Assembly (NCBI GenBank): GCA_025463905.1
Contig: JAODBJ010000246.1
Span: 1 to 41,637 of the forward strand
Length of the DNA stretch: 41,637 nt
Reading direction: 5' to 3'
Source of the DNA: Actinomycetes bacterium
Lineage (GTDB): Bacteria; Actinomycetota; Acidimicrobiia; IMCC26256; PALSA-610
The notes under the pieces were generated by a model. It did no database searches and was not told the origin of the DNA. It saw nothing but the letters and a program-made list of their open reading frames with translations. Below are positions 5,529 to 20,573 of this stretch, in pieces (the first letter of the stretch is position 1; each line of letters opens with the position of its first letter). Position numbers and translations under genes: made by a program.

Positions 5529-7582
5529 TTCGCGGCGATGCCGACGGTGTCGCGTGGTGAGCCGGGTGGGAATGGCGTGGAGCCGGTGGAGCCGAAGAAG
5601 GGAGCGCCGAAAGCGAAGATGCCGCCGTCGCGGCCGATGAGCCAGTAGCCGTCGCCGTCGGGATCGCCCGCGACGCCCACGACGGGTGCGCCGAGTGGTT
5701 TGCCGCCCATCGAGCCCCGGAAGATGGCGGCGCCGAACGCGAATACGCCGCCGTCGCGCGCGGCGAGGATGTAGCCCTTGCCGTCGGGTGTCGAGGCGAG
5801 GCCGACCACGGGTGACACGAGGCGCAAGTTGCCGGTGGATCCGAAGAACTTCGCGGTGCCGAACGTGAAGACGCCACCGTCGGCCGCGACCAGGCGGTAA
5901 CCGTTGCCGTCGCCAGCGGCCGCGATGCCGACTACGGGTGACGTGAGATGCACCGCACCCATCGAACCGAAGAACTTCGCGGAACCGAACGCGAACACGC
6001 CGCCGTCGGCCGCCGCGAGCCAGTAACCCTTACCGTCAGGCGCCGCGGCCATGCCCACGACCGGTGACACGAGACGCAGGTTGCCGGTGGAGCCGAAGAA
6101 CTTCGAAGAGCCGAACGCGAACACCCCGCCGTCGGACGCGACCGACCACGAACCCTTGCCGGTCGGGTCGTTGGCGATACCGACGATCGGCGCGACGACG
6201 GAACGACCCGCGAACGATCCGCACGGCGGCGCGCTTCCGAACGCGCTCGTGCCACCGTCGGCGCGCACGAGCGAGTAACCCGGTGCGTGCGCGGCGCCGC
6301 TGAGCGCGTACTTCACGAGTAACGAGTCGACGGGCGCGATATCGGAACCGCTGGTGTGCGCGGCGATGACGCCGACGAGCAGACTGTTCCCGAGGATGGC
6401 GCCCGCGGTGGCGAGCGAGGCCTGGTACGGGTTGTTCGCACCCGTGCCCAACAGTTCGGTGAGCACGCGTCCGTTGCACCCGAACGACGGATCGATCTTG
6501 CCGGCCGCGGAGAAGCGGAAGAGCGTCACGAAACTGCGGACGTTCGGGAAGTCGCTGCTGAGCGCGGAACCGCCGATCACGACGAGTCCACCTGAGCCGT
6601 CGACGACGACGTCGAACGCCCGAGTCAGTTCGCCGGCACTCGTGCTCGCGGTGCCGAGCGAGGCGAACGTCGTGTCGATCGCACCCGAAGCGGTGAAGCG
6701 CGCGATGCCAGTGTGGGCAAGGTCGATTGAACCGGCCACGATGAATTGGGAGCCCTGCGCGCGCAGTACATCGCCGGCCGTCAGCGTTGTCGCGCCCGGC
6801 AACGCGTGGCCGGACGTACCGAACCCGCTGTCGAGTGTGCCGTTCGTGCGATAGCGCGCCAACAAGAGCGCGGGATTGCCGTTCGATTGTTGGAACGTGC
6901 CCGCGACCACGACCTTGCCGTCGGGTTGCACGATCGTGTCGCGCGCCTCAGCGTTCGACCCGAAAGTGCCGAGTACGTGGCCGTGGTCGCCGAAGGCGGC
7001 GTCGAGTGCGCCGTTGGTGAGGTACCGCGCGATGCCGACCTTGGTTCCCGCGGCGCGACCCGCGACCACGATCTTGCCGCCCGGTGCGATCGCGACCGCG
7101 ATCGCCGCGTCGGAGCCACCGAAGTCGGTGGTGGCGATTCCGTCCCCGGAAAACGTCGGGTCGAGCGCGCCATCGGTGCGGAATCGCATCACGAGGAAGT
7201 CTGCGAAACCGTTCGCGTCGCCGACCACTACGAGCTTGCCGTCGGGTTGGAGGGTCGCCGCGAGCGCGTTGCCACCCTTCGGCGCGTCGACGCGGGTGGC
7301 ACCGCCGACGCCGAATGTCGCGTCGAGCCGACCGCTCGTGCTCTGGCGGCTGATCACGATGCCCGTCGCGACATCGCCGACCGTAACCACCTTGCCGTTG
7401 GCAGTGGGGAGCACCGCGATGTTGGCGGGCCGGTGGAGCGTGCCGTTCCCCGACGCGCCGAACGTCGACACGATCTCGCCCGGCGTAGCCGCGACAGCCG
7501 TCGCGCTCGCGGCCATTGCCGCGAGCGCGATGCCGAGCGCGGTCGCGACCGCGATCGCAGGGCGAGGAATGAGGGGAGTCAA
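5525..7582 (-). CDS. Secreted beta-propeller-like protein: delta-60 repeats plus DGGVFAFG repeats
   Basis: A 685-residue protein started at TTG 7582, with AGGAGG eight bases upstream; the frame is open further but would include sequence before that site and run into the divergent PAP2 gene. A signal peptide is evident (AIAVATALGIALAAMAASATAVA, residues about 9-31). Residues about 35-440 contain six or so delta-60-type repeats marked by LDATFG, LDPTFS, LDAAFG, LDSGFG, IDTTFA and IDPSFG with DGKLVVVGDA-like strands. From about 470 to the end come six units of roughly 44 residues around GYWLAAADGGVFAFGSAKFFGSMG-like sequence (short segments only quoted). Both halves are expected to form propellers. 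Role is unknown; surface display or envelope binding is inference. The last four nucleotides overlap the stop of the convergent hydrolase gene. Confidence 0.85.
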   Translation of the reverse strand: MTPLIPRPAIAVATALGIALAAMAASATAVAATPGEIVSTFGASGNGTLHRPANIAVLPTANGKVVTVGDVATGIVISRQSTSGRLDATFGVGGATRVDAPKGGNALAATLQPDGKLVVVGDANGFADFLVMRFRTDGALDPTFSGDGIATTDFGGSDAAIAVAIAPGGKIVVAGRAAGTKVGIARYLTNGALDAAFGDHGHVLGTFGSNAEARDTIVQPDGKVVVAGTFQQSNGNPALLLARYRTNGTLDSGFGTSGHALPGATTLTAGDVLRAQGSQFIVAGSIDLAHTGIARFTASGAIDTTFASLGTASTSAGELTRAFDVVVDGSGGLVVIGGSALSSDFPNVRSFVTLFRFSAAGKIDPSFGCNGRVLTELLGTGANNPYQASLATAGAILGNSLLVGVIAAHTSGSDIAPVDSLLVKYALSGAAHAPGYSLVRADGGTSAFGSAPPCGSFAGRSVVAPIVGIANDPTGKGSWSVASDGGVFAFGSSKFFGSTGNLRLVSPVVGMAAAPDGKGYWLAAADGGVFAFGSAKFFGSMGAVHLTSPVVGIAAAGDGNGYRLVAADGGVFTFGTAKFFGSTGNLRLVSPVVGLASTPDGKGYILAARDGGVFAFGAAIFRGSMGGKPLGAPVVGVAGDPDGDGYWLIGRDGGIFAFGAPFFGSTGSTPFPPGSPRDTVGIAAN
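5560..6200 (-). repeat. Internal coding repeats, about 132 nt each
   Basis: Within the preceding gene, about five near-repeated DNA units occur, each containing CCGAAGAACTTC followed some 25 nt later by CCGCCGTCGG-like sequence (plus-strand reading). They encode the 44-residue DGGVFAFG units. High similarity between neighbouring units makes copy-number change by recombination, and assembly collapse, possible. Confidence 0.7.
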
Positions 7583-17872: not shown

Positions 17873-17933
17873 GGCGCGACGGAGGGTAGTGACTCGCCGC
17901 GCGTATTTCGCGGACCGTTTACGATCCGAACAC

Positions 17934-18020
17934 ATGACCCAGGCGCAGATCCGGAGGTGCGGACGGTGTGGCGTTACGCAACGCGTGCGTGATCGAGCGC
18001 CGGAGGTCGTAGCCGCATGA
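17934..18020 (+). CDS. Micro-ORF copy 1 (28 aa, CxxC)
   Basis: ATG 17934, stop TGA 18018-18020 which overlaps the next ATG as ATGA. The product begins MTQAQIRRCGRCG and ends APEVVAA; it has one CxxC pair and is very basic. A TACGAT at 17920-17925 is a possible -10, which would give a nearly leaderless transcript, but no convincing -35 is seen. Coding status is inferred from ATGA coupling and frame preservation, not from homology. Confidence 0.5.
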   Translation: MTQAQIRRCGRCGVTQRVRDRAPEVVAA

Positions 18021-18106
18021 GCGCCCAGGCGCAGATCCGGAGGTGCGGACGGTGTGGCGTTACGCAACGCGTGCGTGATCGAGCGCCGGAGGTCGTAGCC
18101 GCATGA
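18017..18106 (+). CDS. Micro-ORF copy 2 (29 aa, CxxC)
   Basis: ATG 18017 within the stop of copy 1, with GGAGGT nine bases upstream. The body is identical to copy 1; the N-terminus is one codon longer (MSAQAQIRRC instead of MTQAQIRRC). Its stop overlaps the next ATG at 18103. Confidence 0.5.
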   Translation: MSAQAQIRRCGRCGVTQRVRDRAPEVVAA

Positions 18107-18195
18107 GCGCGGCCCAGGCGCAGATCCGGAGGTGCGGACGGTGTGGTGATACGCAACGCGTGCGTGTTCGAGCGCCGGAGGTCGTAGCCGCATGA
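18103..18195 (+). CDS. Micro-ORF copy 3 (30 aa, CxxC)
   Basis: ATG 18103, again one codon longer (MSAAQAQIRRC). Compared with the others it carries Val to Asp and Asp to Val changes plus one silent change. Its stop overlaps the crotonase ATG at 18192, making the crotonase the fourth member of the coupled chain. Confidence 0.5.
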   Translation: MSAAQAQIRRCGRCGDTQRVRVRAPEVVAA

Positions 18196-18974
18196 GTGTC
18201 GTCACGTACGAGGTCAGCGCGTCGATCGCTCGAGTGACGATCAATCGGCCGGAGCGGCGGAATGCGATGTCGTACGGCGTGATGCAAGGTTTGCGCGACG
18301 CCATGGCGCGTGCGCGCGACGACACCGACGTTCGGGTGGTTGTGCTCACCGGTGCCGGTGACCGCGCGTTCTGCGCCGGTGCGGATCTCGGCGGAGGTGG
18401 CATCGGCGACAACGCCGGCGCCGCCGCCGCACACGACGGCCGGGGTCTGCTCGCCGACTTGTTCCGCGAGATGTGGGCGCTGGGCAAACCGATCATCGCC
18501 CGGGTTCGCGGCTTCGCGCTGGCGGGTGGCTTCGGCCTCGCGTGCGCGTGCGACTTCATCATCGCTTCGGACGACGCGCAGTTCGGCACACCCGAGATCA
18601 ACGTCGGCCTCTGGCCGTACATGATCACCGTGCCGTTGCTGCGATCGATGTCGCCCAAGAAGGTCCTCGAACTCATGACCACCGGTCGCCGCGTCGACGC
18701 CGCGGAAGCGGAGCGCATCGGGTTCGTGAACCGCGTGGTCGAAGTGGAACAACTCGATGCGGCCGTCGACGAACTCGCGACACAGCTTGCATCGAAGTCG
18801 CCGGTGATCATGCGCTGGGGTCGGGACGCGTTTTACCGGGTGCTCGATATGGACGCCGACGACGCGCTCGCGTATTTGCAGACCATGCTCACCATCACCA
18901 CGCTCACAGAGGATTCGGCTGAAGGTGTCGCGGCGTTCGCCGAGAAGCGTGTTCCCGAATGGAAAGGTCGGTAA
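18192..18974 (+). CDS. Enoyl-CoA hydratase/isomerase (crotonase) family protein 1
   Basis: A 260-residue protein from ATG 18192, overlapping micro-ORF 3 (ATGA) with GGAGGT upstream. Crotonase hallmarks: RVTINRPERRNAMSYG at the N-terminus, GAGDRAFCAGADLGG forming the first oxyanion hole, and RGFALAGGFGLACACDF for the second. The C-terminal segment SAEGVAAFAEKRVPEWKGR is typical. It should hydrate or isomerise an enoyl-CoA. It lies 6 nt ahead of an acyl-CoA carboxylase beta subunit, so a role in branched-chain amino acid or odd-chain acyl-CoA catabolism is likely. Confidence 0.93.
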   Translation: MSVVTYEVSASIARVTINRPERRNAMSYGVMQGLRDAMARARDDTDVRVVVLTGAGDRAFCAGADLGGGGIGDNAGAAAAHDGRGLLADLFREMWALGKPIIARVRGFALAGGFGLACACDFIIASDDAQFGTPEINVGLWPYMITVPLLRSMSPKKVLELMTTGRRVDAAEAERIGFVNRVVEVEQLDAAVDELATQLASKSPVIMRWGRDAFYRVLDMDADDALAYLQTMLTITTLTEDSAEGVAAFAEKRVPEWKGR

Positions 18975-18980
18975 CCGACC

Positions 18981-20573
18981 GTGCCCGACAAGCCGGTTTC
19001 GCACGAGGGTGGGAACGTGCACGCGTGGGGTCCGCTCGTGGATGCGCTCACCGAGCGTAAGGAGCGCGCGTTCGGCATGGGGGGCGACGCCCTGGTCGAA
19101 CGGCAGCATTCGCTCGGCAAGCTGACCGTCCGCGAACGTCTCGAGCTCTTGCTCGACCCCGGTACGTGGGTGGAGTACGGATTGCTCGCCGACCACATGG
19201 ACGCGGGGCTGGGCGACCGCTTCCTCGCGGCCGACGGTGCCGTCACCGGCGTCGGTGACATCGACGGCCGGAAGGTCGCGATCGCGGCCTACGACTTCAC
19301 CGTGATGGCGGGCTCCATGGGCAAGGTCGGGGAAGACAAGATCGGGCGGATGCGCGCGCACGCGGTCGCGCAACGCATCCCGATGGTCTGGCTACTCGAC
19401 TCGGCCGGCGCGCGGATCCAATCGACGAGCGGATCATCGTTCGCGGGCGCGGGTGCGCTGTTCCGTGAACAGGTCGCGATGAGCGGTGTTGTGCCGATGG
19501 TCGCCGCGATCCTCGGCCACTGTGCGGCGGGTACGGCGTACATCCCTGGGCTCGCCGACTTCGTGCCGATGGTGAAAGGCACGTCGTCGATGGCGTTGGG
19601 CGGCCGCCACCTCGTGAAGGCGGCGGTGGGCGAGGACGTGACCGAGGAGGAGATGGGCGGCTCCGCGGTGCACACCAAGGTCAGCGGCGTGGCCGACCTC
19701 GAAGTGGCCGACGACAAGGAATGCCTTGAAGTCGTGCGGCGCTATCTGTCGTTCTTCCCGCAGCACAACGGCGACGCGCCGCCCGTGCGTGAGTGCACTG
19801 ACCCGGTCGACCGCCGCGTCGAGGAGCTCTACGACCTCGTGCCGACCGCACCGCGCCGCGCCTACGACATGCGCCGCGCGGTCGCGGCCATCGTCGACGA
19901 CCACGACGTGTTCTGGATGAAACCCGAATGGGCCAAGAACATCGTCACCGCGCTGGCGCGTATCGGTGGCCAGCCGGTGGGGATCGTGGCCAACCAACCG
20001 ATGGTGCTCGGTGGCGCGCTCGACGTGAACGCGGCCGACAAGGCGGCGCGTTTCGTGTGGTTGTGCGACGCGTTCAACATCCCGCTCGTGTTCCTGCACG
20101 ACGTACCGGGCTTCATCGTCGGTTCGGCGGTCGAGAAGCAGGGCATCATCCGCCACGGCGCAAAGATGCTCTTCGCCGTGTCGGAGGCAACCGTTCCGAA
20201 GATCAGCGTGGTGTTGCGCAAGAGCTACGGCGCGGGCTACTTCGTGATGAACGGACTGGCGTACGAAGCCGACTACATCGTGGCGTGGCCGACGGCGGAG
20301 ATCGCGGTGATGGGCCCCGACGGCGCGGTGAACATCATCCACCGCCGCACCCTGGAAGCCATCGAAGACGACAAGGAGCGGGCGCAGCGGCGGCTCGAAC
20401 TCGCGGAGGAGATCCGCCAGAACATCGATCCCTACGTGGCCGCGGGCCATGCGCAGGTCGACGATGTGATCGATCCCGCCGACACGCGCCGCGCGGTCGC
20501 ACGCGGCCTGGCGGTAAGCCGCGACAAGCGGGTTTCCCGCCCGGCCCGCAAGCACGGCGTGCTGCCGGTCTGA
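18981..20573 (+). CDS. Acyl-CoA carboxylase carboxyltransferase (beta) subunit
   Basis: A 530-residue protein from GTG 18981. It has the two crotonase-like carboxyltransferase halves of the propionyl-/methylcrotonyl-/acetyl-CoA carboxylase beta family: GKLTVRERLELLLDPGTW near the start, LLDSAGARIQ and AAGTAYIPGLADFV in the N half, FLHDVPGFIVGSAVEKQGII and RKSYGAGYFVMNGLAYE in the C half. It transfers a carboxyl group from biotin to an acyl-CoA. Its biotin carrier is encoded 23 nt downstream; no biotin carboxylase is in the window. Acyl-CoA substrate cannot be fixed from the sequence. Confidence 0.93.
   Translation: MPDKPVSHEGGNVHAWGPLVDALTERKERAFGMGGDALVERQHSLGKLTVRERLELLLDPGTWVEYGLLADHMDAGLGDRFLAADGAVTGVGDIDGRKVAIAAYDFTVMAGSMGKVGEDKIGRMRAHAVAQRIPMVWLLDSAGARIQSTSGSSFAGAGALFREQVAMSGVVPMVAAILGHCAAGTAYIPGLADFVPMVKGTSSMALGGRHLVKAAVGEDVTEEEMGGSAVHTKVSGVADLEVADDKECLEVVRRYLSFFPQHNGDAPPVRECTDPVDRRVEELYDLVPTAPRRAYDMRRAVAAIVDDHDVFWMKPEWAKNIVTALARIGGQPVGIVANQPMVLGGALDVNAADKAARFVWLCDAFNIPLVFLHDVPGFIVGSAVEKQGIIRHGAKMLFAVSEATVPKISVVLRKSYGAGYFVMNGLAYEADYIVAWPTAEIAVMGPDGAVNIIHRRTLEAIEDDKERAQRRLELAEEIRQNIDPYVAAGHAQVDDVIDPADTRRAVARGLAVSRDKRVSRPARKHGVLPV

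Follow-up and report, generated by a model that had tools for sequence, protein, structure and literature searches.

The window analysed here, a 41,637-nt stretch of DNA from an Actinomycetes bacterium, carries three near-identical units at positions 17934-18195, each running from ATGA to ATGA, upstream of a gene for an enoyl-CoA hydratase/isomerase (a crotonase; 18192-18974, plus strand; Pfam PF00378, E 2.9e-59) that is followed in the operon by a carboxyltransferase gene (18981-20573, plus strand; Pfam PF01039, E 1.5e-158). With unit starts at 17934, 18017 and 18103, followed by the crotonase ATG at 18192, the spacings are 83, 86 and 89 nt, as a first-pass annotation of this DNA had described. 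Each unit has, as that annotation also stated, its own GGAGG (18002-18006, 18088-18092 and 18177-18181) and a short open frame ending in the next ATGA. In particular, the micro-ORFs of unit 1 (17934-18020, plus strand; MTQAQIRRCGRCGVTQRVRDRAPEVVAA), unit 2 (18017-18106, plus strand) and unit 3 (18103-18195, plus strand) are all open, comprise 28, 29 and 30 amino acids, respectively, and stop at the TGA of the following ATGA. Units 1 and 2 are identical along 87 nt, counted from CCCAGG, rather than along the 81 nt first reported, and unit 3 differs from them by the expected three substitutions. The array received a score of 472 from Tandem Repeats Finder, and an Rfam search of the array region returned no match. 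A divergent DUF5317 gene (PF17248) lies on the minus strand directly upstream of the array (upstream of window position 17877). Another tandem array, with a period of 126 bp, 3.5 copies and 74% matches, is present at window positions 5727-6281, probably within a coding region.

With the array as query, seven further places were found in its own genome. These loci share the ends of the array (CCAGGCGCAG... and ...GGAGGTCGTAGCCGCATGA) and not its middle, and most of them lie exactly 5' of the starts of other genes, namely fabF (after acpP), metK, efp, prcA and kdpF. (The fabF, metK, efp and prcA genes were identified by Pfam; kdpF and acpP are our presumptive names, given on reading the translations.) A covariance model, R1, was built on 44 copies and used alongside pattern searches; unit 1 of the window scores 75.6 bits with it. 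The family so defined numbers about 110 copies, spread over seven genomes of a single actinobacterial family, with 65 matches in genome G001, 17 in G008, 13 in the window genome, 11 in G013, 4 in G011 and one each in G002 and G005, and the same searches found no copies in seven other genomes of that taxonomic family. Only three matches lay outside it, in two of 395 genomes of the class, and in a phylum-wide sample no R1 matches were found in other genomes. The three outlying copies (L255 in G036 and L285 in G170) come from two other families of the order, have no ATGA start context, and may be decayed copies, products of transfer or the result of mis-binned contigs. Tandem arrays of two to four units occur at several loci with unit lengths of 86/86, 80/80, 80/77 or 86 repeated; growth by one codon per unit, to which the first-pass annotation had drawn attention, thus holds in the window array but not elsewhere.

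The copies sit at start codons of the form DTGA, in the orientation of the gene that follows. Ninety-nine of 113 terminate in ATGA, and 77 of 113 lead into an open reading frame of at least 60 codons, with many of the others leading into a next unit. Empty sites were found in relatives for the crotonase gene (six), efp (13), metK (12), fabF (12) and prcA (seven); the metK and fabF sites are empty in all relatives seen, and three genomes, namely G000, G002 and G008, have the prcA site occupied. Comparison of the crotonase locus across relatives, a check that the first-pass annotation had proposed, yielded six orthologues that do not carry the element, all of which keep TACGAT or TACCAT 6-9 nt 5' of the start codon. 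The window keeps TACGAT (17920-17925, plus strand; a probable -10 box, judged from its spacing) 8 nt before the first ATGA, which then opens the three units. Because the hexamer lies so close to the start codon in these relatives, the native crotonase start is probably leaderless. Left TGAs closed upstream genes in 71 of 87 cases, compared with 66 of 174 control frames, which is weak evidence because high G+C content makes open frames common.

The letters that follow the left DTGA also resemble those that follow the right ATGA. Across 63 loci the match was 1.70, against 1.04 +/- 0.10 when permuted (0 of 20,000), a significance that is optimistic because the copies share ancestry. The left start codon begins with A at 48 of these loci and with G at 15, a mix like that of native genes, and the right start codon begins with A at 62 of 63, so the left start codon appears to be native and the right ATG appears to have been brought by the element. 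In the window copy the match after ATGA is no longer than one letter (ATGAGCGC versus ATGAGTGT). At efp (L004 1440-1640, G000:C14) the duplication greatly exceeds the few bases seen as a rule: the gene begins GTGAGC or GTGAGT in 13 of 13 relatives, and in the window genome the native GTG and the first ~50 nt of efp come before the element, after which follow ATGAGCATCTC and the full gene, with GTG as the left start and ATG as the right. A second cut that varies, or a repair event, may lie behind this.

A length of 2 mod 3 is the condition that puts the stop of the micro-ORF on the ATGA. This length was found in 69 of the 82 copies that have both a left DTGA and a right TGA (P 3e-21), and in 24 of 37 when the two commonest lengths were set aside (P 9e-5), both P values again being optimistic because of shared ancestry. 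Within the 69 in-frame copies there are no stops in 1,899 codons, compared with 27 and 13 stops per 1,830 codons in the other two frames. The conserved 5' block is nevertheless read in a different frame in 11 of the 69 (58, 6 and 5 copies in the three frames), so that one copy yields MKQPGADRRRG... where another yields MSSQAQTAGAV..., the frame being restored by compensating indels. Open frames combined with a 5' block that is read in varying frames point to selection on translation up to the ATGA and not on the product; it seems, in other words, that translating the unit matters and the peptide does not. The suggestion made in the first-pass annotation that coupled micro-ORFs may pass ribosomes downstream is consistent with these frame and stop counts for the whole family. 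Out-of-frame lengths occur in 13 copies that have both ends. Some of these are in-frame fusions with the host gene; others terminate at the TAG of GTCGTAG, which lies a few bases 5' of the ATG, and termination there would also permit coupling. Where a copy is fused in frame or lends its first codons (L062, second copy; L100; L275; L109, second copy; L110; L090), element sequence is now the N terminus of the host protein, as in MSMSQAQNGGADKKIEIYD... and MSNEAQIDLDH....

The ends of the element are terminal inverted repeats of ~18 nt. In unit 1 the left arm (GGCGCAGATCCGGAGGTGC) occupies 17942-17960 and the right arm, which contains the Shine-Dalgarno (SD) sequence, 17997-18014, both on the plus strand; the arms of unit 2 lie at 18028-18046 and 18083-18100, and those of unit 3 at 18117-18135 and 18172-18189. 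RNAalifold returned the consensus GGC-3-GACC-3-GGCGC / GCGCC-3-GGTC-3-GCC, in which 95.0% of cells pair across 113 copies in an alignment fitted to the structure, compared with 19-52% for slid versions. Cells with double changes numbered 83, against 18.7 after shuffling, and fell in 10 of 12 pairs (113 copies), and a MAFFT alignment of 44 copies, made independently, likewise shows covarying ends. A transposase could recognise such ends in the DNA, or they could act as RNA. The central ~17 nt (in G001) are mostly constant in length and common to tandem neighbours, and are near random between loci, with an identity of about 0.26-0.42 per column for an expectation of 0.29. The G001 copies L059-L092 and L256-L277 display conserved arms around such a centre. 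The near-random match between loci led us to consider that the centre may be swapped at each jump. Since 86% of the centre is common to the two members of the paralogous pair L098/L101, and the orthologous pairs of G008 and G013 have retained theirs, drift combined with selection on the arms may also have produced this pattern.

If the inverted repeats acted as RNA, the left arm might hide the SD sequence until a ribosome translating the micro-ORF opens it, so that coupling would be strict and the unit would be a regulatory leader and not mainly a mobile element. The GGTC of the right arm does overlap the SD sequence and pair with the GACC of the left arm, and the covariation is strong and includes paired changes at single loci (GATC/GATC and GTCC/GGAC). 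However, the terminal repeats of a mobile element may covary too, single units fold no better than shuffles (z -0.75 to 0.23), and accessibility of the SD sequence did not depend on the left arm (0.336 unpaired, versus 0.356 with the arm shuffled; P 0.39). Moreover, the host genes (efp, metK, prcA, fabF and others) are unrelated and thus make up no regulon, and we regard a regulatory leader as quite unlikely. It is also unlikely, in our judgement, that the number of tandem units is under selection as a dial for expression, through dosage or a ribosome relay. The arrays found at several loci would suit such a dial, as would the precedent of Mtb-fpg1, in which longer repeat arrays are accompanied by more mRNA (PMC2734929), but the near-identity of units within an array is what neutral tandem duplication would leave, and a single unit is present at most G001 loci.

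Two further proposals draw on features of the window units themselves. The motif RRCGRCG is present in the peptides of all three, whose frames are open, and the first-pass annotation had raised a metal- or thiol-binding peptide and a cysteine attenuator. The CxxC motif is, however, specific to this locus and not common to the others; the reading frame of the peptide varies between copies, with the 5' block occurring in all three frames and the frame restored elsewhere; the copies precede unrelated genes; and Rfam offers no match. A functional basic CxxC peptide, or a cysteine-sensing leader peptide, is thus already contradicted at the level of the family and is very improbable here. The dyad ACGCA-ACGCG-TGCGT, which had been read as possible operator DNA, is indeed found three times in the window array, but it falls in the centre of the unit, which is specific to each locus and matches between loci at a near-random level, and it is not common to other loci. 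Since the position of the copies is fixed to start codons and not to promoters, we give a role as an operator, or as other protein-binding DNA, hardly any credence.

Mycobacterial interspersed repetitive units (MIRUs), which are in wide use for strain typing, offer the comparison on which our own reading draws; there is, to our knowledge, no settled account of their movement or of their function. A 2025 review (PMC12548453), with reference to Supply et al. 1997, describes MIRUs as apparently mobile elements that are inserted at start codons and whose internal ORF is coupled to the gene at a spacing of -4 nt. The tandem chain of the window, which had seemed of an unfamiliar type, is therefore matched by published tandem, start-codon-inserted, coupled micro-ORF repeats. 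A MIRU core pattern, run on 397 genomes, was found in six genomes of one genus with up to 28 copies, and not in the window genome. This genus, which the MIRU match leads us to take to be Mycobacterium, shares only the phylum with the window genome and belongs to another class. Among the measurable MIRUs, 20 of 22 have lengths of 2 mod 3 (an example peptide is VTRAGDDAERSDEEERRR), mostly 50 or 53 nt as opposed to 80 or 86 nt in the window family, and the target match after the TGA was 2.29 versus 0.52 when permuted, or ~1.7 when two within-array comparisons were left out. One MIRU tandem array (L245 in G533) overlaps through TTGA instead of ATGA. Like MIRUs, the window family consists of short repeats that are both interspersed and tandem (113 copies, several arrays of 2-4), inserts at start codons with the stop of the micro-ORF overlapping the next start, obeys the 2 mod 3 length rule, makes a short target duplication from the TGA and has its own SD-like sequence near the right end. 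Unlike MIRUs, it has another sequence and another lineage, a right start that is almost always ATG, and a hypervariable centre. R1 did not match at MIRU positions, its sole hit with E <0.01 in MIRU loci lying away from the MIRU, and we rejected the unit as a MIRU homologue because the covariance model detected no sequence homology. Given the same length rule, site and duplication but no R1 match and a different host, the window family works like a MIRU and is not one by sequence or host; the two may be either distant relatives or convergent. A literature search, for which subscription journals were mostly out of reach, found no MIRU-like elements outside mycobacteria.

The family also resembles MITEs and other non-autonomous inverted-repeat elements in being small and dispersed, with terminal inverted repeats, a target duplication and no transposase gene, but differs from them in sitting at a start codon and in having an interior that is open in one frame. 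A longer parent was sought through left arms that lack a full unit (G000:C131, G001:C33 and G001:C57), and no second arm or transposase was found in the DNA read. Another parallel is offered by natural leader ORFs with coupled translation and by bicistronic expression designs (PMC12548453), in which the stop of a short ORF likewise overlaps the next start and ribosomes are delivered to the gene that follows; the window family, in contrast, is dispersed by insertion and tandemly repeated.

Taken together, we consider it likely, with a probability of roughly 0.8, that the array represents three tandem copies of a non-autonomous, MIRU-like mobile element of an independent family. The finding adds a distinct family to a kind already known; it is not new as a category, nor is it an isolated regulatory oddity. 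This reading rests on dispersal, precise insertion at start codons, empty sites, short duplications, conservation of frame and stop in the absence of a conserved peptide, and covarying ends, all of them read from DNA. The element would consist of terminal inverted repeats, a short locus-specific centre, and an SD sequence with ATGA at its right end, and would be inserted at a native start that reads DTGA, by an enzyme presumably supplied in trans, with duplication of the start codon and the few bases that follow. The native start codon would then open a micro-ORF of 26-30 codons whose TGA stop overlaps the ATG that the element supplies to the host gene; with an SD sequence just upstream, the terminating ribosome, or another nearby, could start at that ATG. 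At the window locus, unit 1 would inherit the leaderless start that the crotonase gene probably had, units 2 and 3 and the crotonase gene would be translated by coupling, and the tandem copies would have arisen by local duplication. Handing the ribosome on to the gene in this way would make insertion harmless.

It is conceivable, although we think it rather improbable, that start-codon-targeting mobile micro-ORFs form a general class in the Actinomycetota that includes MIRUs and the window family as independent or very distant members, uses shared DTGA-recognising machinery and tunes host expression through unit number. A second family with another sequence but with the same site, 2 mod 3 length and duplication separates the needs of the mechanism (a start codon, DTGA, an open frame and an SD sequence close to the right end) from what is accidental in the sequence. 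Here a mobile element sits at the starts of genes expected to be essential, such as metK, efp and enolase, with no apparent damage, and its dozens of loci in metagenome-assembled genomes constitute a natural test of translational coupling.
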